From contig JAEYFY010000075.1 of assembly GCA_023454395.1 (NCBI GenBank), forward strand, positions 1 through 14,817: a stretch of 14,817 nt of DNA, read 5' to 3'. The translations under genes and the position numbers were made by a program. The notes under the pieces are model-generated. The model had not been told where the DNA came from and ran no database searches. It saw only the letters and a list, made by a program, of their open reading frames with translations. Source of the stretch: Pseudomonadota bacterium (GTDB lineage: Bacteria; Pseudomonadota; Gammaproteobacteria; Enterobacterales; Enterobacteriaceae). Below, piece by piece: positions 153 to 14,209 of the stretch (positions are counted from its first letter, which is position 1; each line of letters starts with the position of its first letter).

Positions 153-195
153 TAGCTAATACATTCCTGCTATCAGTTCAATAGGTTTTACCTAA
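153..195 (-). promoter_or_regulatory. ahpC promoter with OxyR operator
   Basis: On the plus strand, 159-195 reads ATAC-N7-CTAT-N7-ATAG-N7-CTAA. This is the four-element OxyR motif (ATAG-N7-CTAT twice, separated by 7) with one mismatch in each of two elements and correct spacing throughout. Most of the conserved inner T and A positions are present too. Reading toward ahpC, a -35 TTGAAC (181-176) and a -10 TAGCTA (158-153) are separated by exactly 17 bases. The operator therefore covers the -35, as expected for OxyR activation. The leader to the ahpC start is about 45 bases. Confidence 0.75.
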
Positions 196-395
196 TGAGT
201 TGAAGAAATTGATAGAGATAGGTTAACGAAATGTAGCTATTAAAGCAAATGGACAACAAGCCAATTACGTCTACCTTTTATTAACCTACTTTCTTAACCT
301 ACTCTCTATTTAATATCCTTAGCTTCGATAAGGGTATAATTATAATACCATGAATTATAAAGTTAATATTCAATCCAGCATAGATAGATTCAATA

Positions 396-4453: not shown

Positions 4454-4609
4454 TCATATTCTGCCAGGTTTACGTAACGCTCTACGAAAGTAAGAAACTG
4501 GCATTTTAGGGCAGATTTGTTCTTTTACTGCTGGATTATTTTCCAAATCATCTTTATCTATTTCATTATTTCTTCTTGAATTTTGTAGCTGAGTATCTGT
4601 TTTATTCAT
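4454..4609 (-). CDS. Small 51-residue ORF overlapping the PadR-type regulator gene
   Basis: The ATG at 4609 lies inside the last codons of the regulator gene (ATGAATAA overlap), so translational coupling is likely. The regulator's own GAGGAAAGGGAAG codons supply a purine-rich ribosome site. The predicted peptide has a polar, charged N-terminal half (MNKTDTQLQNSRRNNEIDKD), a single cysteine, and a basic end (SYFRRALRKPGRI). There is no signal peptide or membrane segment. I recognise no family. The tight overlap and the following hairpin favour a real gene, but a chance ORF of this length is possible. Confidence 0.45.
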   Translation of the reverse strand: MNKTDTQLQNSRRNNEIDKDDLENNPAVKEQICPKMPVSYFRRALRKPGRI

Positions 4610-5453
4610 CTTCCCTTTCCTCTGAGATCAATGCCTCATTGATAGCTTCAATTTTCTCAACTGCTTCATTAAGAATAGAAGCAATACGTCCTGCTTTTTC
4701 CACCGAAAGCTCTTTTAACACTAATTTGTGGCGTAAAACTGCTTTTAATTTACCAACAGCAGATTCAATTTCCTCAGAAACACCACCTGCGTTTTGAGAT
4801 AAATCTCTTGCATAAGCCAGTTTTCTTTGAATATTGGCATCAATATCTTGATGTTCTGCTAAAAATGCAGTGCCTTCAGATGTAATACTGTAGCTTTTAC
4901 GACCTTTTTCAGCAATCGTAGCAACTAATAGATCTTGCTCTTCAAGTAGTGTTAGCGTTGGATAAATAACACCAGGGCTAGGTACATATAATCCTGAAGA
5001 AGCCTCATCTATTTCTTTGATAATTTCATAGCCATGACTTGGTTTTTTCGAGATCATGCTAAGTAACAGAACGCGTAAATCACCATGATCAAACATACGT
5101 TTTAACTGGCGACCTTGGCCTTTACCTCTGCCACCGCACCCACGGCCACGTTGGTTTCCATGCTCGTCAGAACCATGTTCACCATGACCTTTGTGTCCGC
5201 GACCATGCTCACCATGGCAGCATTCACCACGACCTTCGTGTCCATGACCATGTTCACCATGGCAGCATTCGCCATGACCTTCGTGTCCGTGACCATGTTC
5301 ACCATGACAGCAATGCTCGCCATGATTTTCTTGGTGACGACTATGTTTACCTTTACCACCACAGCGACCTCTTCCGTGACCATGTCCATGACTACCATGT
5401 TCGCCATCTTCAGCACGCTGTTGATAAAGTGAGTTTAATGCTCGAATCATCAT
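4602..5453 (-). CDS. YqjI-type PadR-family metal-responsive regulator with expanded His/Cys repeats
   Basis: This 283-residue protein ends in a PadR winged helix (from about 117: MFDHGDLRVLLLSMISKKPSHGYEIIKEID...YVPSPGVIYPTLTLLEEQDLL) plus a C-terminal helical dimerisation part. The N-terminal 100 residues contain 23 His and 7 Cys in a Gly-rich setting. These include three tandem 15-residue units starting CCHGEHG at residues 48, 63 and 78 (DNA 5178-5312). E. coli YqjI has the same architecture, with a shorter His/Cys extension; it senses nickel and represses the ferric reductase gene yqjH. The likely role here is a nickel- or other metal-released repressor. Autoregulation is probable because three dyads surround its promoter. 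yqjH is not adjacent. AGGG lies 7 bases before the first ATG, which is followed by a second ATG. Confidence 0.85.
   Translation of the reverse strand: MMIRALNSLYQQRAEDGEHGSHGHGHGRGRCGGKGKHSRHQENHGEHCCHGEHGHGHEGHGECCHGEHGHGHEGRGECCHGEHGRGHKGHGEHGSDEHGNQRGRGCGGRGKGQGRQLKRMFDHGDLRVLLLSMISKKPSHGYEIIKEIDEASSGLYVPSPGVIYPTLTLLEEQDLLVATIAEKGRKSYSITSEGTAFLAEHQDIDANIQRKLAYARDLSQNAGGVSEEIESAVGKLKAVLRHKLVLKELSVEKAGRIASILNEAVEKIEAINEALISEEREDE
5178..5312 (-). repeat. Three in-frame 45-bp tandem repeats in the regulator gene
   Basis: Residues 48-62, 63-77 and 78-92 read CCHGEHGHGHEGHGE, CCHGEHGHGHEGRGE and CCHGEHGRGHKGHGE. The 45-bp units are in frame, so gain or loss of a unit would change metal-ligand number without a frameshift. 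Each unit supplies two Cys and four to five His in the first two copies. Confidence 0.85.
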
Positions 5454-5470
5454 AAATATTCCCTCATTGT

Positions 5471-5544
5471 TTTAGATATATCGAATTCATGTAGTGCAAT
5501 ATAATCCGATATATCTAAATAATCAAGTTTTAGATATATCTAAA
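5471..5544 (-). promoter_or_regulatory. Regulator promoter with three dyad operators
   Basis: The 16-bp perfect palindrome TTTAGATATATCTAAA lies at 5529-5544. Imperfect copies sharing the GATATATC core lie at 5471-5486 (core 5475-5482) and 5504-5519 (core 5508-5515). On the minus strand a -35 TTGATT (5526-5521) and -10 TATATT (5503-5498) are exactly 17 bases apart. The middle dyad fills that spacer and the others flank the promoter. This is a convincing repressor layout, and autorepression by the PadR-type product is the simplest reading. Confidence 0.7.
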
Positions 5545-5618
5545 TGCACATTTAAATCGACTCACTTATTAACAATATGATTTATCTATGATTAATTTTT
5601 TCAAATCTGGGCTTAATT

Positions 5619-5637
5619 ATGAATGATTATCATTCTC
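5619..5637. promoter_or_regulatory. Fur box
   Basis: On the minus strand this reads GAGAATGATAATCATTCAT, matching 15 of 19 positions of the Fur consensus GATAATGATAATCATTATC, with the central AATGATAATCATT intact. It lies about 165 bases upstream of the regulator start and about 90 bases beyond its -35. That is far for direct repression of this promoter. No open reading frame starts on the other side. Confidence 0.65.
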
Positions 5638-5788
5638 TAGCTTGCTTTTATGTGCTATCAATGAAAATAAAAGAAAATAAATAATAAAGAAGAATACAAA
5701 ACAGACACTTTTAGCTTAAAATACGCACAAAAAATAAAACAGGTTTATAATGCAATAAGTGACAACGTCACCTTAAATTCATTTTAAA

Positions 5789-5831
5789 AAAAAGCGAAGA
5801 TAATGAGCAACAACCCACTACTTCGCTTTTT
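5789..5831 (-). terminator. Intrinsic terminator downstream of the decarboxylase-like gene
   Basis: AAAAAGCGAAG (5789-5799) and CTTCGCTTTTT (5821-5831) form a perfect 11-bp stem. On the minus strand the stem ends in eight Ts, about 50 bases after the gene's stop. It also ends in Ts on the plus strand, so it can work in both directions. A shorter AGCG/CGCT hairpin followed by six Ts overlaps the stop codon itself (5870-5881). Confidence 0.75.
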
Positions 5832-5879
5832 AACAAAATTTATTTTAATTGTAGGAAATATCACAAAAAAGCGATATCG

Positions 5880-7718
5880 CTACTGGTCTAATGCGGATAA
5901 AACCACTTTCTTAATATATTGATATCCAGCTTCAATTTGTTGTTCATCACAGACCTCAGTACTTTTTATAGTAAGCTGCAACAAATTTAAGTGTTTGATG
6001 GTTTCCCACTCATTGCTATCAAAACCACACTCAGAACAAAACTGCGCTGGTGCATCATCACTATTACGAGCGCAAAGCGTTAATAAACTTAAATCTTGTT
6101 TATGATGACTTTTTATAACCAAGTTTTCATAGATTGTTTTATTAAGATCATTTTGCGTTTCTAAGTCCTTATTTCCTTTCTTTACTATCGCAAAATTTAG
6201 TTTATTAAAGTCAGATGCAGATAAAATACGAATATAATAGCGCTCACCTTCTTTTTCGAAAGCTGCGGCTTGATTAAAAAACTGCTCAAGTTTGATACGC
6301 GTTTCCCATTGAATTTGTGCATATTTCCCATATCCAGATGAAGTAAAAGGATAGAGTTGATGCACACTCCACATAGACGCCACTGCTGGTGCAGATTGAA
6401 TACCATCAATTTCCGGAACATCATCTGCTTGCTCTGGGCATAATCTAGGGGGATTGGTTAAAAAACGACTAATACGCGCATCTTTAATACAGACTACACC
6501 CGTAGGATATGGTGAAAATCCAGCTTGAAACGGTTCAAAAGAGACTGAATCAGCGAGAGAAAGCTGTGTAATGCTTTCATATATTTCGGATGTTAATTCA
6601 AGTAATGGGGCTTCTTTCTTTAATTTTTCACACAAAATCTGATAAGGGATAATTTCATAATTATCATCAAGAAATAAGCTTTTCATATAACCAAATTGTG
6701 ATGCATCAATATGGATATAAAATGAATTGTTGTATTTTTCCTCACACTCTTTTCTTAGCTCAAAAAGTGGTTTTAACTTATCAACACAACCATAAGACGG
6801 TGCGCCTAATATTCCTATAACCCCAAGAATAGGCTCACCTTGTTCAATCAGGCGAAAAACAATACTGCGTGTTTTTTCAATATCGGTTTTAAATGTTTCA
6901 TCAATAGGCAATGCAATAAGGTTGTCATATCCCAACCCAAGTATATCCATTGCTTTTTTCCAAAATTCAAAACGGGAAACAGGAACAAGCAGTTTTCCTA
7001 AATGCATTGTTTTTGTCATGCCCGTTCCTCGGCATGTTAAATGACTTACATCATCAAAAATCCCGCGCTCATTGAGTTGTTCGCTTATGGCTAAAATATC
7101 TGTGACAGACATATTAAATAACTCAAAGGCTTTTTTATCTGCAACCAAATCTCGTGATTTTGGATGACGAGCAATCGCCATTGGCAATGTTTTTAAATTT
7201 CTAAGCGCCCATAATATTTCATAGCAAGCAAGAGTATGGCTTGTTGTGATATGACCAAATGCATCTTTTGATGAGAAACCGATTAATTTACAGAGATCAT
7301 CCGTAATTTTCTTTTCTTGTTCTTTTAGTAAGGGGGAATGATTATTAAAAACATTATCCGAGTTGTATGCTAATGCAGAAAGATAACCGAATTTCGCCAA
7401 TTGCATCACTTGTGAATGATGATGAGAAAAATAAGGTTCAATATCAGATTGATTATAATTATTTTGCTGTTTTAAAGTCTCTAAAATACTTTCATAAGCA
7501 TTATCTACTGCTTTTTTTTCAATAGCGTTACTTTTTATTTTAGCGTCTAAACTCTCGCTATTATTTCTTTTCATTTTATTTGCTTTAGGAAAAGAATACT
7601 CACTATTCATTAGTATTTTTGCCATCTCTCGATGATAACATGTAAGAGTATCAATGGTTCGGGTATGGTATACACGCTCTGCAGCACTCAGACAGGTTTG
7701 TTTGTGATTTGCCATCAT
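5880..7718 (-). CDS. Tyrosine-decarboxylase-like protein lacking the PLP lysine (probable pseudoenzyme)
   Basis: This 612-residue protein aligns along its length with bacterial group II PLP decarboxylases. It is closest to Enterococcus/Lactobacillus tyrosine decarboxylase (about 620 residues) as I remember that sequence. Shared landmarks are PYFSHHHSQVMQ near 95-106, GHIT...EILWALRNLKTLP (155-179), GKLLVP (241-246), DILGLG, HIDAS with the PLP-pyridine Asp D338, and SPYPTGVV. The lysine motif DPHK, however, reads EPFQ (395-398), so the Schiff-base lysine is Gln (codon 6525-6527). The HYSW motif reads FEFW, so the PLP-stacking His is Phe250. The STEEGAVD loop reads APSYGCVD. The frame is fully open, which argues against simple decay. 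No amino-acid antiporter is adjacent. Two ATGs overlap the start; AGGTG fits the second (7715) slightly better. Ordinary decarboxylase activity is unlikely. Confidence 0.75.
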   Translation of the reverse strand: MMANHKQTCLSAAERVYHTRTIDTLTCYHREMAKILMNSEYSFPKANKMKRNNSESLDAKIKSNAIEKKAVDNAYESILETLKQQNNYNQSDIEPYFSHHHSQVMQLAKFGYLSALAYNSDNVFNNHSPLLKEQEKKITDDLCKLIGFSSKDAFGHITTSHTLACYEILWALRNLKTLPMAIARHPKSRDLVADKKAFELFNMSVTDILAISEQLNERGIFDDVSHLTCRGTGMTKTMHLGKLLVPVSRFEFWKKAMDILGLGYDNLIALPIDETFKTDIEKTRSIVFRLIEQGEPILGVIGILGAPSYGCVDKLKPLFELRKECEEKYNNSFYIHIDASQFGYMKSLFLDDNYEIIPYQILCEKLKKEAPLLELTSEIYESITQLSLADSVSFEPFQAGFSPYPTGVVCIKDARISRFLTNPPRLCPEQADDVPEIDGIQSAPAVASMWSVHQLYPFTSSGYGKYAQIQWETRIKLEQFFNQAAAFEKEGERYYIRILSASDFNKLNFAIVKKGNKDLETQNDLNKTIYENLVIKSHHKQDLSLLTLCARNSDDAPAQFCSECGFDSNEWETIKHLNLLQLTIKSTEVCDEQQIEAGYQYIKKVVLSALDQ

Positions 7719-8186
7719 CGCACCTATATATAAATTTTTATTATCTGTTTTAATGAAATTTGTGTTTATTAATCGTCGATACTTAATCTTTATTCAAATG
7801 ATATACCACATGATGAGTAAGAATCTTCTTTATTTTATTGATATCAGTTAATATTTTTCTAATTTGATTTAAGCAAATGATATCTTAATGATAAATGATT
7901 TAGCTTTATTTGTTAGTTTCTTAAATTCACTATCAATTTTGATTTAAGTTATATTTCTGTAAATATGATATTATTTTTGCCAAGGTCAATACTTAAATCT
8001 ACCTTAATCAGAATCAATGAATATTTCTATCGCTTAACATCTATAAAAAAGAATAGATATTAAATTACTTATCTAAAATAAAAATTTATTTATTTAAATG
8101 TTATTCATTTTTCCTTCAATACATAAAAAACACATAAAATATTTAGTATGTATTTTTCGGAATATTCGCTTTTTAGAAAGGAAAAG
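7719..8186. other. AT-rich gene-free interval upstream of the decarboxylase-like gene
   Basis: About 470 bases with very high AT content and no ORF I can support. It holds the leader of the decarboxylase-like gene, two copies of TTTGATTTAAG about 75 bases apart (near 7863 and 7939), and an ATCTAT/ATAGAT hairpin near 8040. The composition is typical of H-NS-bound or acquired DNA in enterobacteria. That is inference only. No convincing -35/-10 pair stood out among many AT-rich candidates. Confidence 0.4.
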
Positions 8187-8187
8187 A

Positions 8188-8224
8188 AGTGCTTACCTCT
8201 TATATCAAATAAGTTTTAAGCACT
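8188..8224 (-). terminator. Terminator-like hairpin after the quinone oxidoreductase gene
   Basis: AGTGCTTA (8188-8195) pairs perfectly with TAAGCACT (8217-8224), and an inner CTTAT/ATAAG stem extends it. On the minus strand it is followed by TTCTTTTCCTTT, a T-rich tail. It begins 8 bases after the end of the quinone oxidoreductase gene. Confidence 0.6.
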
Positions 8225-8231
8225 CTTATTT

Positions 8232-9257
8232 TTACTCTTTTCCGTTATAAGATGGGATTTCAAGCATCACCTTACCAATTAAATCACCGGACTCCATTAA
8301 CTGATGTGCTTTCCCTACTTCTTTTAATGGAAAAATAGCATTAATAATTGGTTTAATTTTTCCTTCAGCAATAAGTGGCCACACTTGCTGTTTTAATTCT
8401 TGTGCTATTTGCGCCTTCTCTTCTATTGAGCGAGATCGCATCGTGGAACCAGTATGAATTAAACGCTTAATCATCATTGGCATCATATTTAAATTTTTAG
8501 GCATTCCTTTCATCATACCCACTTGTATAACGCGCCCAAACTTGCTGGCAACTTGATAATTTTTCTCTACGTAATCCCCACCAATAATATCAAGAATAAC
8601 ATCAACGCCTTTCCCTTCAGTTAATATAGGAATTTCTTTAGCAAAATCGGCTTGTTTGTAATTGATGACATAATCAGCGCCGAGCGCGCGAGCCACGGTA
8701 GCTTTTTCTTCAGAGCCAACCGTTGTATAAACTGTCGCACCGATTGTGTGAGCAAGCATGATGGCAGTTGATCCAATTCCCGATGTTCCGCCATGAATAA
8801 GAACAGATTCACCTTGTTTTAGTTTTCCTAACTGGAATAAATTAGCCCAAACAGTAAAGAAATTCTCAGGCAATGCTGCGGCTTCAATGTCCGTTAAATT
8901 CATTGACGGTAATGCGATATCTTCATGAGCAATGCAATATTGAGCGTAACCACCACCAGCAACTAAAGCACAGACTCTATCTCCCAATTGCCATTTAGTG
9001 CAGCCTTCCCCTAATGCGACAACCTCTCCAGCAACTTCAAGACCTGGGATAGGTGAGGCATCTGCTGGTGGCGGATAACTGCCTTGGCGTTGAAAAATAT
9101 CCGGGCGATTAACACCAGAAGCTGTAACTTTGATCAAAAGATAATGTGGAGGAAGTAACGGTATCGGTGATAGTTGGGGTTGTAACTTATCTATACCACC
9201 TGGCTCTGTAATGGCAATTTCTAACATTTCCGCAGGTAAAACAGTTGTTTTCATCAT
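8232..9257 (-). CDS. NAD(P)H:quinone oxidoreductase, zinc-independent MDR family (PIG3 type)
   Basis: This 341-residue protein is a medium-chain dehydrogenase/reductase. It has the N-terminal GroES-like domain (VTASGVNRPDIFQRQGSYPPP, 44-64; PIPGLEVAGEV, 69-79; GDRVCALVAGGGYAQY, 92-107) and a Rossmann domain with VLIHGGTSGIG (152-162). The zinc-binding Cys/His set of alcohol dehydrogenases is absent. NRPDIFQRQG and the sequence after the Rossmann motif are typical of the PIG3/TP53I3 quinone oxidoreductases, cytosolic enzymes that reduce quinones with NAD(P)H. The gene stands alone between its own terminator and a 128-base gap. The start is double: GGGAG is only 3 bases from the first ATG (9257) but 6 from the second (9254), so translation probably begins at the second. 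Confidence 0.85.
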   Translation of the reverse strand: MMKTTVLPAEMLEIAITEPGGIDKLQPQLSPIPLLPPHYLLIKVTASGVNRPDIFQRQGSYPPPADASPIPGLEVAGEVVALGEGCTKWQLGDRVCALVAGGGYAQYCIAHEDIALPSMNLTDIEAAALPENFFTVWANLFQLGKLKQGESVLIHGGTSGIGSTAIMLAHTIGATVYTTVGSEEKATVARALGADYVINYKQADFAKEIPILTEGKGVDVILDIIGGDYVEKNYQVASKFGRVIQVGMMKGMPKNLNMMPMMIKRLIHTGSTMRSRSIEEKAQIAQELKQQVWPLIAEGKIKPIINAIFPLKEVGKAHQLMESGDLIGKVMLEIPSYNGKE

Positions 9258-9385: not shown

Positions 9386-10270
9386 TTATAACCAACCTTG
9401 CTTCTGATGTTGTATGCAAATCGGGCACAATTTTGCTTCTGGACTCCAAGATAAGAAGGCTAAACGGCATTTTTCACAGTGGGCATCATAATAATGGTAA
9501 TGTGTTGGTTCGTTATTTTTAGCAACGTGTTTATTAACATGAATAGATTTAGGAAAACAAACCACTTCACAACTCATACAACCAGTACAACGCTTTTCAT
9601 CAAGCATGAATATATTATTTTCAAGTTTAATCGCACCTTCATCACACACTTTGGCGCAGGCAGAGCAAAGAATACAACTGTCTTTGTCTAACTGAATTTG
9701 AAACCAACTATCTTCAGGATAAAGTTGTTTTCTTGCATTTAATCCTGTTCTTACTTGATTTTTATTGAGTGGCTTTTCATCTAGTTTTTGACGAAAAAGC
9801 ATAAAGCGACGCCCACTATCAATATCCGTAGGTTCAGTGATTATTAATTGCCAAATAGGCTCTTGTAATGTTTTTAATTGAAGATTTAAGTTTGCTAAAA
9901 CAGGAAGCCATTTATCCACTAAAGGTTGCGCTATCTTCATTCCTCTAATTTGATATTGGCGGTGCCACACTAATAATTCTTCTGTGCTTGCTAACGGTTC
10001 ATCATGATTAACAACAAGGTAATTATCTTGGTGTGTTCTTTCGTGTGGCGCGATATTTTCTATCGCGTCAACGGGACAAGTAAATAGACAATTACCACAT
10101 TGAAAACAGCGTTCATTGTCTATTTTTACATCTAAGTGAGCAAAAGTGATAGCGCCCACAGGGCAAACTTTGGAGCAACTATCACATAGGCTTTGTTTGA
10201 GGCGTTTTCTAACACATTTATCATTAATAATTGGTTCAGGAGGAAGCTCCACCTTAATAAAACGCCTCAT
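9386..10270 (-). CDS. Polyferredoxin with C-terminal zinc ribbon, fourth gene of the dms-type operon
   Basis: This 294-residue protein has no signal peptide or membrane segment. Cys sets, in order, are C19/C29/C32/C36, with an unusual 9-residue gap after the first Cys; C55/C58/C61/C65P, a classical 4Fe-4S motif; C199/C202/C205/C209; and C228/C231/C234/C238. The layout suggests two ferredoxin-like pairs, with cross-ligation normal in such folds, so up to four 4Fe-4S clusters. C265xxC268 and C282xxC285 form a zinc-ribbon-like tail. Residues 80-190 contain no Cys and match nothing I know. The gene follows the DmsC-like gene by 14 bases with GGAG upstream, so it is in the same operon. A role in electron transfer to, or maturation of, the reductase is inference. 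E. coli dms operons lack such a gene. Confidence 0.8.
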   Translation of the reverse strand: MRRFIKVELPPEPIINDKCVRKRLKQSLCDSCSKVCPVGAITFAHLDVKIDNERCFQCGNCLFTCPVDAIENIAPHERTHQDNYLVVNHDEPLASTEELLVWHRQYQIRGMKIAQPLVDKWLPVLANLNLQLKTLQEPIWQLIITEPTDIDSGRRFMLFRQKLDEKPLNKNQVRTGLNARKQLYPEDSWFQIQLDKDSCILCSACAKVCDEGAIKLENNIFMLDEKRCTGCMSCEVVCFPKSIHVNKHVAKNNEPTHYHYYDAHCEKCRLAFLSWSPEAKLCPICIQHQKQGWL

Positions 10271-10284
10271 ACATCACTACTCCA

Positions 10285-11157
10285 CTACTTAACAATAAAG
10301 AATGCAAAACGATTAAGAATTTCTGCAATCAGTATTATTGCGCTACTTGCTAACACCATACGCAATCCTGAAGTAAATACAGCATTACGATATTTCCATA
10401 CACTGTATCCCATCATTAAAATACCAAGAACTGACATAAGCCATGCAGATATTCTTAATCCGAATGTTTCATTATACGCAATGATAGGCGTATGAGGGAA
10501 CGTTATTGCATCATTTGTTGAAATGACTGCTGACATCCATTCCAAATAGAACGGCTGTACAGCCATACGTAATGTTACAGCAAGAAAAACAACCACTAAT
10601 GCACTTATTACAATCCTTTTTGCTAACTCATCATTCACAAATGCTTTAACACGAAATGCCGTTATTGATAGTGCAATAACCGAGCCAGCTGCAAATAATG
10701 CCCCTATAAACATAAAATAGGTATTTGCGTGCATCCATGTCAGCATTGAGGTGTTGTAATACAGTGATGCCATACAGAATATATCGATGATGCCAAGCAA
10801 ACCAATAATTGCCAGTATGGTTTTATTCATATGCCCTTTTATCAAAACAACTAAGGTATAAAGGCATAATGCACCAAGATAAACTGCAGCAAATATGATT
10901 TCACGACTTAGCCATGATGAAGATATATGGCGTAATGCATGAAAAGCATTCCATGGGTATCCCATGTGTAATGTTGAAGCTAATAATCCCAAGCAACCTA
11001 AAATAGCACCCGTTAATAATACAGGACGCATAGCAACGGTTGCTCTTTGATTACCAATTGTTTTTTCTAACCAGTAAAAATAAAGTGCGGTGAAAATAGT
11101 CACACCCACAGAACTTTGGACGAATAAAGTAAAGGTAACTAATGGCCATTCACTCAT
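10285..11157 (-). CDS. DMSO-reductase-type membrane anchor subunit, DmsC-like
   Basis: This 290-residue protein is an eight-helix membrane protein of the DmsC family. It starts MSEWPLVTFTLFVQ, very like HEWPLMIFTVFGQ in E. coli DmsC as I recall it. It keeps the LLASTLHMGYPWNAFHAL segment, whose His corresponds to the quinol-site residue studied in DmsC (LHLG). DmsC oxidises menaquinol and anchors the A and B subunits in the inner membrane. The start codon overlaps the stop of the upstream DmsB-like gene (ATGA). The stop is TAG. Confidence 0.85.
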   Translation of the reverse strand: MSEWPLVTFTLFVQSSVGVTIFTALYFYWLEKTIGNQRATVAMRPVLLTGAILGCLGLLASTLHMGYPWNAFHALRHISSSWLSREIIFAAVYLGALCLYTLVVLIKGHMNKTILAIIGLLGIIDIFCMASLYYNTSMLTWMHANTYFMFIGALFAAGSVIALSITAFRVKAFVNDELAKRIVISALVVVFLAVTLRMAVQPFYLEWMSAVISTNDAITFPHTPIIAYNETFGLRISAWLMSVLGILMMGYSVWKYRNAVFTSGLRMVLASSAIILIAEILNRFAFFIVK

Positions 11158-11783
11158 GCTTGAACTCCTCCCTTTTTCGTCGCACCCATATGAGGTTTGA
11201 TAACTAAATTCGGGTTTGTCATCGTAAAATCAGGCAATCCTTGAACTTGGTTTAAATGCCCATATTTCGCCCTGAGATCTTTAATTTTGCCAAACTTAAT
11301 CGCATTTAGTGGACAGGTATCAACACAAATTGGATTTTTGCCTTCTGCTAACAAATCGATACAAAAATCGCATTTTGACATCTGCCCAGTTTCTTCATTC
11401 ATTTGTGGTGCGCCGTAAGGGCATGACCAAGCGCAGTAACCACAACCTACGCATTTAGAGGTATCAACACGGACAATACCATCACCTTCACGCTTATGCA
11501 TTGCAGTAGTCGGGCAGTTTTTCACACAAACAGGTGAATCGCAGTGGTTACAAGATAGGGTTAATGTATAAGCAAAAACATTATTAACGAAACCTCCTTG
11601 TCCTGTGGGTGCAAAACCGCCACCTTTTACTTCATAAATACGGCGAAAACGACGTCCTACTTCTAAATTATTTTTGTCTTTGCATGCCACTTGGCAAGCT
11701 TTACAACCAGAGCAACGAGAGGAATCAATAAAGAAACCGAGCTGTTCATCACTCACTGGTGCATATTCTTTAAAGTCACTCAT
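11154..11783 (-). CDS. DMSO-reductase-type iron-sulfur subunit, DmsB-like
   Basis: This 209-residue protein carries four 4Fe-4S motifs: C24xxC27xxC30xxxC34; C78xxC81x4C86xxxC90P; C111xxC114xxC117xxxC121P; and C138xxC141 with C153 and C157P. This is the standard arrangement of DmsB/NrfC-type electron-transfer subunits, which pass electrons from the membrane subunit to the molybdenum subunit. Length and motif spacing are normal for DmsB. It overlaps its neighbours by 4 bp on both sides (ATGA at each junction), so the three subunits are translationally coupled and probably made in fixed proportion. It has no signal peptide, as expected for a subunit carried across by the twin-arginine signal of the catalytic partner. 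Confidence 0.9.
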   Translation of the reverse strand: MSDFKEYAPVSDEQLGFFIDSSRCSGCKACQVACKDKNNLEVGRRFRRIYEVKGGGFAPTGQGGFVNNVFAYTLTLSCNHCDSPVCVKNCPTTAMHKREGDGIVRVDTSKCVGCGYCAWSCPYGAPQMNEETGQMSKCDFCIDLLAEGKNPICVDTCPLNAIKFGKIKDLRAKYGHLNQVQGLPDFTMTNPNLVIKPHMGATKKGGVQA

Positions 11784-14170
11784 GCTTTGGTTACCTCAAC
11801 TAAAACGGTTAAATGCGAGTTACCATGTGCTAATGGTGTCATTCGTGTTGATGTTAAAACATTAGGGCATCCACCATGATCAACGCCATTTTCATCAGGC
11901 GTCCACCATGCGCCTGCTTGCAATCCAACCACACCAGGAATAATGCGTTGTGTCACTAATGCAGGGATTTGAGTTATTCCTCTGTCGTTATAGACACGCA
12001 CCATATCACCATTTTTGATACCTCTATTTTCAGCATCAATTGGGTTTATCCATACTTCTTGACGTTGTACTTCTTGTAACCACGGATTGGCATATTGTGT
12101 TGAATTCGCCCGATTTTTTCCTTTCCAAGTTAGCATTTGTAATGGATACGTTGCTGTTAATTTATCTTCAGGACCTTCAATCGCTGGAACATAATGAGAT
12201 AAAGCAGGAATATCCTGATCATTCATGTCATAAAGGCGCTTAGAGAAAATCTCAATTTTTCCTGATGGTGTTGGGAATGGGTTACTCGCAAAATCATTGA
12301 TGTTTTCTTCAAAGGCAACGAAAGGCTCATCTTTGAAAAGATAACGACGTGTTTTTACCAACTCGTCAAAATTAGGGAAGTCAGGTCTATCTTGAAAACG
12401 CGCTTTATTGGTATCAACAAGATGAGCAATCCACTCTTTTTCACTTCGGCCTTCAGTAAATGCCTCTTTTACGCCCATTTTTTCTGCTACGTCTGTTATC
12501 CACTCATAGTCAGAGCGACGCTCAAAAGCCGGCTCTACCACTTTTTCGGACAGAAGAAAATAGTTACCCGTACCCCATGTATTACCAATGTTCCAACGCT
12601 CTAGAAAACTGGTTTCAGGTAAAACAAGATCGGCATATCTTGCAGATGGAGAGAGATATAAGTCACTAGCAACAATAAATTCAACTTTTGAATCATCTGC
12701 TAATAATTTAGCCGCTGCATTTACATCTGGGTTCTGGTTAACTAAATAGTTGCCGGCTAAAGAAAATATCATTTTGATATTAGTATCGAGTTTATCAACA
12801 CCTAAAAGACCATCTTCAACACGTATTTGGCTTGCATCATCAACTGCTTGCATCCAGTTCATAATGGAAATTTGGGCTTTAATTGGATTCTTTCCAACAT
12901 TAGGGCCACGCAGAGATTGACGATTACCAATACCACCATAACCAGCCGCCCATGCCCCTTTTTTACCTACATTTCCGGTGATCGCGGCCAATAATGTCGA
13001 ACCTCGAGCGCTACGCTCACCACAAATATGGCGTTGAGGTCCCCAGCCTTGAATAAGAGCCGCGGGTTTTGTCATGGCATATTCGCGTGCGAGTTGACGA
13101 ATAGTATTTGCGGGCACTCGAGTGATTTTTTCTGCCCATTCAGGCGTTTTTTCTATTCCATCTTTTTGACCTGTTAAATAAGCAACCAAGGACTCATTAG
13201 CAGGAACACCTTCAGGCATATGCTCTTCATCAAAACCAATGACATATTTATCAATAAAAGGTTTGTCATGAAGATTTTCGGTGACAATGACATACATCAT
13301 TGCATCCATTAAGGCATTATCTGTTGTCGGTAAAAGAGGAACCCATTGATCAGCAAGAGACTGTGCCGTATCTGAATAACGAGGATCGACCACAATAAAC
13401 TTAGTACCTTTATTTTTCATTTTCTGAAAATAATGGTTTGTGTGACCAAAAATAGTTTCATTGGGGTTATGACCCCATAAAATCACGAGTGGTGTATCTT
13501 CAAGTGTATCGAGTGAACTGCCTGTTTTAGATATGCCGTAAGTATAAGGGGTCACTTTGACCGTATTCCCTAAACTAACAGAATGATAATAAGGTAAGTA
13601 TCCACCAGTTAAATTGAAGAGTTTCTTCATCATGGTATCACCAGAGAAGATCCCCCCTGTTACAGCGGTATTGACGGTTAAAAAGCGACTTGCTGCACCA
13701 TGTTTTTCAGTTAAACGCGTAATATTTTCTGCAATAAGTGTTGTCGCTTCATCCCATGAAATACGTTCAAATTTACCCTCACCACGTTTGCCCACACGTT
13801 TCATTGGGTATTTTAGTCTGTCAGCATGATAAGAAAATTTACGATAACCTCTGCCACGCACGCACGCTCTCATAATAGGCATCGTTTCATCTAATTCATT
13901 ATCAGGTCTTGTTGTGATCCGAGTGACAATTCCTTCTTTAATATTGGCTCGTATATCACACTTTCCACCGCAGTCAAAAGTACTACATGTCGTTACAACG
14001 GTAGCTGGGTTTCCTTCCATTTTTGCAATTGGCAAACTTTTATCTGCATTAGCTTGTGCATTTCGTGCGAAAAATGGCACAGTAACTAATGCAGCACTCG
14101 TTTGAACAAAGTGGCGACGACTTAGCGACATCTCCCCTCTATTTTTTTCACTTTTTTCTATTTTTTTCAT
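11780..14170 (-). CDS. Molybdopterin oxidoreductase catalytic subunit, DmsA-like, Tat-exported
   Basis: The protein is 796 residues from the ATG at 14170. A twin-arginine signal (SRRHFVQ at 17-23, then a hydrophobic stretch to NAQA) directs export with bound cofactor. A 4Fe-4S motif C62-x4-C67-x3-C71 with C103 in RACVRGRG follows. DmsA-like blocks are RLKYPMKRVGKRGEGKFERIS, GWGPQRH, ITGNVG and INPIDAENRGIKNGDMVRV. The Mo ligand should be a serine, S199 in HSVSLGN, aligned to the DmsA serine. It probably reduces S- or N-oxides such as DMSO or TMAO; the true substrate is not settled. An upstream TTG (14194) is in frame but would leave about 8 bases of leader from the predicted start point. An internal ATG (14131) has its GAGGGGAG directly abutting. 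The ATG at 14170 is therefore preferred. Confidence 0.85.
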   Translation of the reverse strand: MKKIEKSEKNRGEMSLSRRHFVQTSAALVTVPFFARNAQANADKSLPIAKMEGNPATVVTTCSTFDCGGKCDIRANIKEGIVTRITTRPDNELDETMPIMRACVRGRGYRKFSYHADRLKYPMKRVGKRGEGKFERISWDEATTLIAENITRLTEKHGAASRFLTVNTAVTGGIFSGDTMMKKLFNLTGGYLPYYHSVSLGNTVKVTPYTYGISKTGSSLDTLEDTPLVILWGHNPNETIFGHTNHYFQKMKNKGTKFIVVDPRYSDTAQSLADQWVPLLPTTDNALMDAMMYVIVTENLHDKPFIDKYVIGFDEEHMPEGVPANESLVAYLTGQKDGIEKTPEWAEKITRVPANTIRQLAREYAMTKPAALIQGWGPQRHICGERSARGSTLLAAITGNVGKKGAWAAGYGGIGNRQSLRGPNVGKNPIKAQISIMNWMQAVDDASQIRVEDGLLGVDKLDTNIKMIFSLAGNYLVNQNPDVNAAAKLLADDSKVEFIVASDLYLSPSARYADLVLPETSFLERWNIGNTWGTGNYFLLSEKVVEPAFERRSDYEWITDVAEKMGVKEAFTEGRSEKEWIAHLVDTNKARFQDRPDFPNFDELVKTRRYLFKDEPFVAFEENINDFASNPFPTPSGKIEIFSKRLYDMNDQDIPALSHYVPAIEGPEDKLTATYPLQMLTWKGKNRANSTQYANPWLQEVQRQEVWINPIDAENRGIKNGDMVRVYNDRGITQIPALVTQRIIPGVVGLQAGAWWTPDENGVDHGGCPNVLTSTRMTPLAHGNSHLTVLVEVTKA

Positions 14171-14209
14171 TATCTTATCATTCTCACATAACAACGCTCA
14201 TCAGTGAAA

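Follow-up and report, generated by a model that had tools for sequence, protein, structure and literature searches.

DisA of Proteus, probably a tyrosine decarboxylase retired in place and kept for a non-enzymatic role

The window, meaning the whole stretch of 14,817 nucleotides that was analysed, carries on its reverse strand a 612 amino acid (aa) open reading frame that was identified as the orthologue of disA from its sequence clade and its gene neighbours. It is highly probable that this gene is a tyrosine decarboxylase (TyrDC) gene that was retired in place and kept for a non-enzymatic function, most likely the role of DisA as a brake on swarming. In the proposed course of events, disA would have descended in place from the active TyrDC of a TyrDC-transporter operon that is still present in Providencia-like and Photorhabdus-like relatives. 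On the Proteus branch, the linked transporter would have been lost, and substitutions would have removed the PLP lysine together with most residues of the cofactor site and of catalysis. Purifying selection would then have preserved the protein for a function other than catalysis, most likely the swarming brake that DisA exerts via lower class 2 flagellar gene expression.

The disA gene and the active-site residues of its product

The disA gene and the two neighbours that serve as syntenic anchors are located in the window as follows.

5880..7718, reverse strand: disA orthologue encoding a 612-aa pseudo-tyrosine-decarboxylase, 74% identity to P0007
8232..9257, reverse strand: PIG3-family quinone oxidoreductase (QOR) gene, the upstream syntenic anchor common to active TyrDC loci
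4602..5453, reverse strand: gene for a PadR-family regulator with a His/Cys-rich N-terminal extension, the downstream syntenic anchor

The closest gene-named protein, P0007 (463 member sequences), is labelled 'swarming inhibition tyrosine decarboxylase DisA [Proteus mirabilis]'. The disA frame starts with ATG and includes no internal stop, in agreement with the preliminary description of an intact 612-codon frame, which left the strand unstated. Exactly one disA match, also free of internal stops, was found in each of 20 Proteus genomes, and the DisA protein of the nearest Proteus genome (G001) is identical to that encoded in the window. No match to a second TyrDC-family gene was found at E <= 0.001 in any of the 20 genomes; as the neighbours of disA are also common to active loci, the possibility that disA is a paralogue of a TyrDC gene that is still present was ruled out. 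A database cluster of 21 members (P0011) represents a 355-aa disA product from which about the first 257 residues are missing and, as some of its members come from P. mirabilis records, disA may be broken or otherwise annotated in some isolates.

The DisA protein of the window barely exceeds the gathering threshold of Pfam PF00282 (27.7 bits; threshold 27), clearly exceeds that of PF21391, the tyrosine decarboxylase C-terminal domain (53.7 bits; threshold 27.2), and at 277.8 bits lies below the equivalog cut-off of 905.3 for NCBIfam TIGR03811 (tyrosine decarboxylase). Its predicted structure has the tyrosine decarboxylase/PLP-decarboxylase fold, and among solved structures the closest in sequence are the tyrosine decarboxylases of E. 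faecalis and L. brevis. Among the residues expected of a TIGR03811 member, the ring-nitrogen Asp is present (D338 in 23 of 23 DisA sequences), and the Schiff-base lysine, the PLP-stacking His and the catalytic-loop Tyr are absent. Public labels call DisA a tyrosine decarboxylase, yet the catalytic lysine is missing and the window protein falls far under the NCBIfam cut-off.

Residues were mapped by alignment to the L. brevis tyrosine decarboxylase (LbTDC), with residue roles taken from the available text of PMC4904194. The positions of interest are listed below.

6525..6527, reverse strand: Q398 (codon CAA), replacing the PLP Schiff-base lysine (LbTDC K392)
6534..6536, reverse strand: E395, replacing the phosphate-contacting Asp (LbTDC D389)
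6969..6971, reverse strand: F250, replacing the PLP-stacking His (LbTDC H241)
7236..7238, reverse strand: H161, replacing the phosphate-loop Gly (LbTDC G158)
6705..6707, reverse strand: D338, the retained ring-nitrogen Asp of the HIDAA motif (LbTDC D328)
6399..6452, reverse strand: shortened catalytic loop, residues 423-440 (pLDDT < 50 in the model)

In the window DisA, the site corresponding to DPHK reads E395-P-F-Q398, the KHYSW site reads R-F250-E-F-W, and L426 and I440 occupy the positions of the catalytic Tyr (LbTDC Y420) and the cross-subunit Ser (LbTDC S440), respectively. The preliminary description had pointed to EPFQ at the DPHK site with Q398 encoded by CAA, to F250 at the position of the stacking His, and to retention of the motif Asp. 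The first was confirmed by the translation, the LbTDC alignment and all 20 genomes, and the other two hold in 23 of 23 DisA sequences. Q encoded by CAA, together with RFEFW and GHITTSH, is found in DisA of all 20 Proteus genomes, which include 11 named records, among them P. mirabilis ATCC 29906, P. vulgaris, P. hauseri, P. penneri and P. myxofaciens, that carry the same motif without exception (11/11). A sequencing or strain error as the source of Q398 was therefore ruled out.

The replacements extend well beyond the lysine. Of the ten PLP/catalytic residues described in the L. brevis enzyme, the ring-nitrogen Asp is the only one that all 23 DisA sequences retain. The positions of LbTDC A330 (S or A in DisA), S159 (T, I or V), T298 (P or S) and Y420 (I, L or V) vary, and the remaining five sites have one fixed substitute each. 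Invariant in the 23 sequences are D338, H99 and Y404 and the DisA-specific H161, F250, E395, Q398 and I440. Uniformity across 39 lysine-bearing rows reaches 95% or more at 90 positions; of these, 43 were kept in all 10 DisA rows examined, 22 were swapped for one other residue and 25 were variable. Every DisA row is also short of four columns where the catalytic loop ends, although 90% or more of the other rows have them; the model has pLDDT < 50 in the 423-440 loop, as does a lysine-bearing control model in the same loop.

A search with a DisA profile recovered 54 homologues, 10 of them DisA with Q. The lysine is retained in the other 44, as judged from the alignment for 40 and from the motif alone for P0046 and P0053-P0055. 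Q398 and F250 are conserved throughout the DisA sequences compared, and no orthologue with K was seen. The codon at the equivalent site is AAA in 7 of 7 lysine-bearing loci of other genera. As HK is kept in 10 of 10 other group II decarboxylase loci, drawn from eight Proteus genomes, the loss of the lysine is not general to Proteus.

According to the available text of PMC4904194, only the N and Q variants of H241 in the L. brevis enzyme kept low activity, with F inactive, and Y420F had no activity. Structures carrying PLP are available for the K392A E. faecalis TyrDC (PDB 7cwz) and, with PLP and as the external aldimine, for the K245A M. jannaschii enzyme (PDB 6ldr and 6lds), indicating that lysine loss alone does not abolish PLP binding, and residual binding of PLP or another ligand by DisA is possible. 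An H203F tyrosine decarboxylase, in which the replaced His may be the stacking one or another, has also been solved with PLP and Tyr (PDB 8x0o). DisA is very unlikely to perform the decarboxylase chemistry that has been assigned to it.

Constraint on DisA and descent of its locus

The median dN/dS of disA is 0.087 over 210 pairs, and 0.078 with a maximum of 0.12 over the 47 pairs with dS of 0.02-0.3. Such low values indicate that the gene is being kept. Lysine-bearing gene pairs gave 0.042-0.097, a comparison that is thin because only 4 of 21 such pairs were usable. The frameshifts that relaxed selection would leave were not found in any of the 20 genomes. The proposal in the preliminary description that this is a maintained pseudoenzyme is supported by the invariance of Q398 and F250, dN/dS of ~0.08 and frames that are whole in 20/20 genomes, and the pseudoenzyme status of DisA is strongly supported. 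Since the lysine and most of the cofactor site are lost in the Proteus species examined, yet the protein is strongly conserved, DisA probably acts as a protein switch; it would make no amine and would act as a protein.

Enzyme active sites are normally the most conserved part. For 26 pocket positions, the rate relative to the core was 0.25 in 27 lysine-bearing enterobacterial relatives and 0.99 in the 10 DisA rows. The fraction of permutations as low was 0.52 and 0.48 in two runs on DisA. The overall divergence of the DisA and lysine-bearing groups is alike (0.257 and 0.240, respectively). A ligand pocket specially conserved as a set was not found by the 26-position permutations. The ten PLP/catalytic positions taken alone gave 0.195 against 0.239 for the core in seven DisA representatives, a small gap that may not be significant. 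The old pocket of DisA has lost its special constraint. The partial sequence P0026 was left out of the conservation and pocket comparisons, and P0011 (355 aa), P0046 and P0053-P0055 were left out of the main alignment.

Two segments of DisA stand out in these comparisons.

6999..7208, reverse strand: residues 171-240, DisA-conserved windows, from window conservation
7434..7718, reverse strand: residues 1-95, N-terminal arm, from alignment, conservation and the model

For conservation windows within residues 171-210 and 218-240, DisA varies less than the lysine-bearing relatives do, beyond the 95% column-permutation level, and the best window (180-199) was reached by 0 of 2000 permutations; these windows were picked after looking and the permutation ignores kinship. 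The block 171-240 is a candidate new interaction surface. Windows within residues 41-99 vary more in DisA than in the lysine-bearing relatives. The N-terminal arm, 75 of whose 95 residues lie in segments with pLDDT < 50 in DisA, is described as the dimer hinge of LbTDC in the available text of PMC4904194.

The genetic context of disA was compared with that of active TyrDC genes. The order QOR, disA, PadR was found in 5 of 5 Proteus loci compared; in the named Proteus records QOR adjoins disA in 11/11 and PadR lies on the other side in 10/11, one contig ending first. In four TyrDC loci of relatives, QOR adjoins the TyrDC gene in three, a linked TyrP-like transporter is present in three and PadR in two. 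The Providencia-like locus (L068; TyrDC 92% identical to P0035) has the order QOR, TyrDC, TyrP-like transporter, PadR, as does L069 (TyrDC 78% identical to P0012) with one small extra gene; this arrangement is taken as that of the active ancestor. In the Photorhabdus-like locus (L066) QOR, TyrDC and the transporter are present and PadR was not found, and the Xenorhabdus-like locus (L067) has a lysine-bearing TyrDC with no QOR, transporter or PadR nearby; the genus of L066-L068 was assigned by protein identity. As L067 keeps the lysine without a linked transporter, such a transporter is not a condition for TyrDC activity.

The operon transporter was matched over its length at L066, L068 and L069, and no match was found in the window or at five other Proteus loci (best E 0.16; 0.44 at L067). 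A TyrP-like gene is present elsewhere in all 20 Proteus genomes. That this gene is the operon transporter moved to a new position was rejected, as the four compared are nearer to stand-alone (69-73%) than to operon copies (62-65%). The Photorhabdus-like operon transporter is 72% identical to the stand-alone copy of its own genome, so that operon and stand-alone copies are less clearly distinct in that case.

In a tree of 24 rows (the window protein and 23 of the 54 homologues), DisA forms one clade with support of 100/100 (6 rows) and falls together with the enzymes of Providencia, Photorhabdus and Xenorhabdus, with those of Vibrio and farther ones on the other side of the fork (support 95/94). 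The DisA stem branch is 3.27 changes per column long, against inner branches of 0.03-0.25 in the rest of the enterobacterial group and 0.55-1.74 in farther families. As the tree is unrooted and this stem is long, the exact position of DisA inside the group is uncertain. QOR shows no divergence jump like that of DisA. In 15 Proteus-to-other pairs its identity is 64-67%, against 32-36% for DisA/TyrDC, and in 3 other pairs the two values are 65-71% and 71-76%, respectively. The locus can be read as a before-and-after record of an operon enzyme becoming an apparent regulator, in the same place and with the same neighbours, the transporter gone, the active site released from constraint and the protein itself retained.

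Further features of the region were recorded. The PadR gene beside disA includes a 45-bp unit repeated three times (5178-5312) in the His/Cys-rich N-terminal extension. The part preceding the PadR core is 102-140 aa long with 17-28 His in 15 Proteus loci (12 distinct genomes), and the PadR proteins at the TyrDC loci L068 and L069 are just 198 and 177 aa in their whole length. The extension is possibly a metal-sensing addition, found in the genus that also changed DisA. In P. mirabilis ATCC 29906 (L062/L086) there was no match to the porin that other well-flanked Proteus loci have downstream of PadR, and the next window gene matched after PadR encodes a 216-aa protein. On the QOR side, a gene for a 294-aa ferredoxin-like protein adjoins QOR, and positions 9386-14194 (reverse strand) of the window hold a DMSO/selenate-type reductase cluster, the catalytic subunit of which was identified by TIGR02166; the 209-aa and 290-aa genes of this cluster look like those for its Fe-S and membrane subunits. 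In 11/11 named Proteus records, matches to the 290- and 294-aa genes lie beside QOR-disA. A promoter/terminator scan of positions 5400-8300 returned signals at the level of shuffled sequence.

The swarming brake and its possible mechanisms

Among the factors known by name to restrain swarming is DisA. It reportedly holds back swarming of P. mirabilis, the only species in which this function is said to have been tested, by lowering class 2 flagellar gene expression. Mutation of disA is said to restore swarming to a putrescine-deficient mutant and to raise class 2 and 3 flagellar transcripts while flhDC itself changes little; expression of DisA in E. coli reportedly lowers motility, an effect said to be mimicked by phenethylamine. 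The class 2 effect in E. coli suggests a target common to both species, for which FlhD4C2 is the plain candidate.

In the mechanism put forward here, DisA would be a protein-level brake, derived from a dead enzyme, on FlhD4C2 or on its access to promoters. Direct action on FlhD4C2 in the manner of YdiV (RflP), possibly via the conserved block 171-240, is plausible, at somewhat under an even chance. A fuller version, in which a dead TyrDC became an FlhD4C2 anti-activator peculiar to Proteus, binding through this block, and an ancestral amine operon (TyrDC, transporter and PadR) was rewired into a swarming-control locus, is more tentative. A YdiV homologue is present in 7 of 7 other enterobacterial control genomes but in none of the 20 Proteus genomes, and a search of 8 Proteus genomes for EAL domains likewise gave no match in any of them. 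However, a YdiV homologue is also missing from 7 of 7 TyrDC-bearing relatives, so its absence does not single out Proteus. The lack of YdiV is older than the DisA change and does not by itself explain it, and the suggestion that DisA is a Proteus-specific stand-in for YdiV is weakened.

The preliminary description had allowed a regulatory, a binding or a different catalytic role. The last of these is disfavoured, as set out below. In a rival reading, DisA would keep a small-molecule pocket and be a sensor of a ligand (putrescine, phenethylamine, an amino acid or PLP) that controls its grip on a flagellar regulator. This is on the unlikely side. The eight residues invariant in all 23 sequences, the slightly lower variation of the PLP-contact positions than of the core and the reported rescue of the putrescine-deficient mutant by disA loss would suit a sensor, but taken together the 26 pocket positions show no greater conservation than the core, and several of them vary.

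The published idea is said to be that DisA works by making phenethylamine. As an active phenylalanine/tyrosine decarboxylase, DisA would supply phenethylamine as the inhibitor of FlhD4C2 activity. The tyrosine decarboxylase fold of the model is consistent with this, as are the 2013 title naming 'the DisA amino acid decarboxylase', which is a reference entry in PMC7142476, and the inhibition of swarming by phenethylamine reported in the available text of the same article, which fits the older product model. DisA is found there in the reference list only. However, the Schiff-base lysine is missing in 20/20 genomes, the stacking His, phosphate-loop Gly, catalytic Tyr and cross-subunit Ser are lost too, the constraint on the pocket is gone and the linked transporter is missing, making an active enzyme very improbable. 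No mention of the missing lysine was found in the literature searched, the scope of which was without the primary DisA papers, so this says little. DisA did not occur as a word in the available main text of PMC7027876, PMC9861413, PMC6914683, PMC7658346, PMC11224256, PMC5544767 or PMC12153312, the first of which mentions phenethylamine once, and the best 12 of 17 matches in PMC11688363 held no Proteus amine data. If DisA is unable to decarboxylate, either the amine of the phenethylamine model comes from elsewhere or the model falls, and the silencing of class 2 flagellar genes becomes a question of protein interaction.

It is equally improbable that DisA is a prozyme-like inactive partner that activates or inhibits another group II decarboxylase in a heteromer. 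Decarboxylase prozymes and antizyme inhibitors are precedents, and other group II decarboxylase genes are present in 8 of 8 Proteus genomes searched. However, Proteus has no second TyrDC-family gene, the other decarboxylases look distant (GAD-like, DFHKWG type and HDC-like, as typed from sequence), and a GAD-like gene is found in just 4 of the 8 genomes among the matches listed. The remaining part of the earlier suggestion, that the old pocket now carries out a different, lysine-independent reaction, has slightly less still to recommend it. Lysine-free PLP enzymes such as ColD exist and Q398 and F250 are fixed, but different chemistry is disfavoured because the pocket set is no more conserved than the DisA core (0.99, against 0.25 in the lysine-bearing relatives). 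Decay of disA, which the 355-aa form in some P. mirabilis records might suggest, is rejected for the genus on the low dN/dS and the intact frames in all 20 genomes.

Comparison with known systems

The window protein is an orthologue of P. mirabilis DisA (P0007; L019/L086, ATCC 29906), with 73-74% identity, about equal length, the same neighbours and the same Q and F, and there is no difference in kind between them. The subgroup that the preliminary description suggested might be unrecognised is already known by the name DisA, though it is annotated as tyrosine decarboxylase. As the gene and the phenotype are known by name, what is new here is the reading that DisA is without the decarboxylase residues.

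Compared with the bacterial tyrosine decarboxylases (TIGR03811; L. brevis 5hsj and E. faecalis 7cwx), DisA lacks the lysine, the stacking His and the catalytic-loop Tyr, its phosphate loop is altered and its catalytic loop is shortened. The Photorhabdus, Providencia and Xenorhabdus TyrDC proteins (P0012-P0039) are its nearest relatives at 32-35% identity and, unlike DisA, all keep DPHK and HYSW.

The antizyme inhibitor and the AdoMetDC prozyme are decarboxylase pseudoenzymes with regulatory roles. However, these are eukaryotic, belong to other decarboxylase groups and regulate polyamine enzymes. YdiV (RflP), annotated as an anti-FlhDC factor in E. coli, is a degenerate EAL protein and would offer a parallel, since in both an enzyme fold without activity would serve as a flagellar anti-activator, though its fold is unrelated to the PLP-decarboxylase fold of the DisA model. 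If the reading of DisA as an FlhD4C2 anti-activator is true, control of the flagellar master regulator by a retired enzyme would be known from two unrelated proteins, with DisA as the second.
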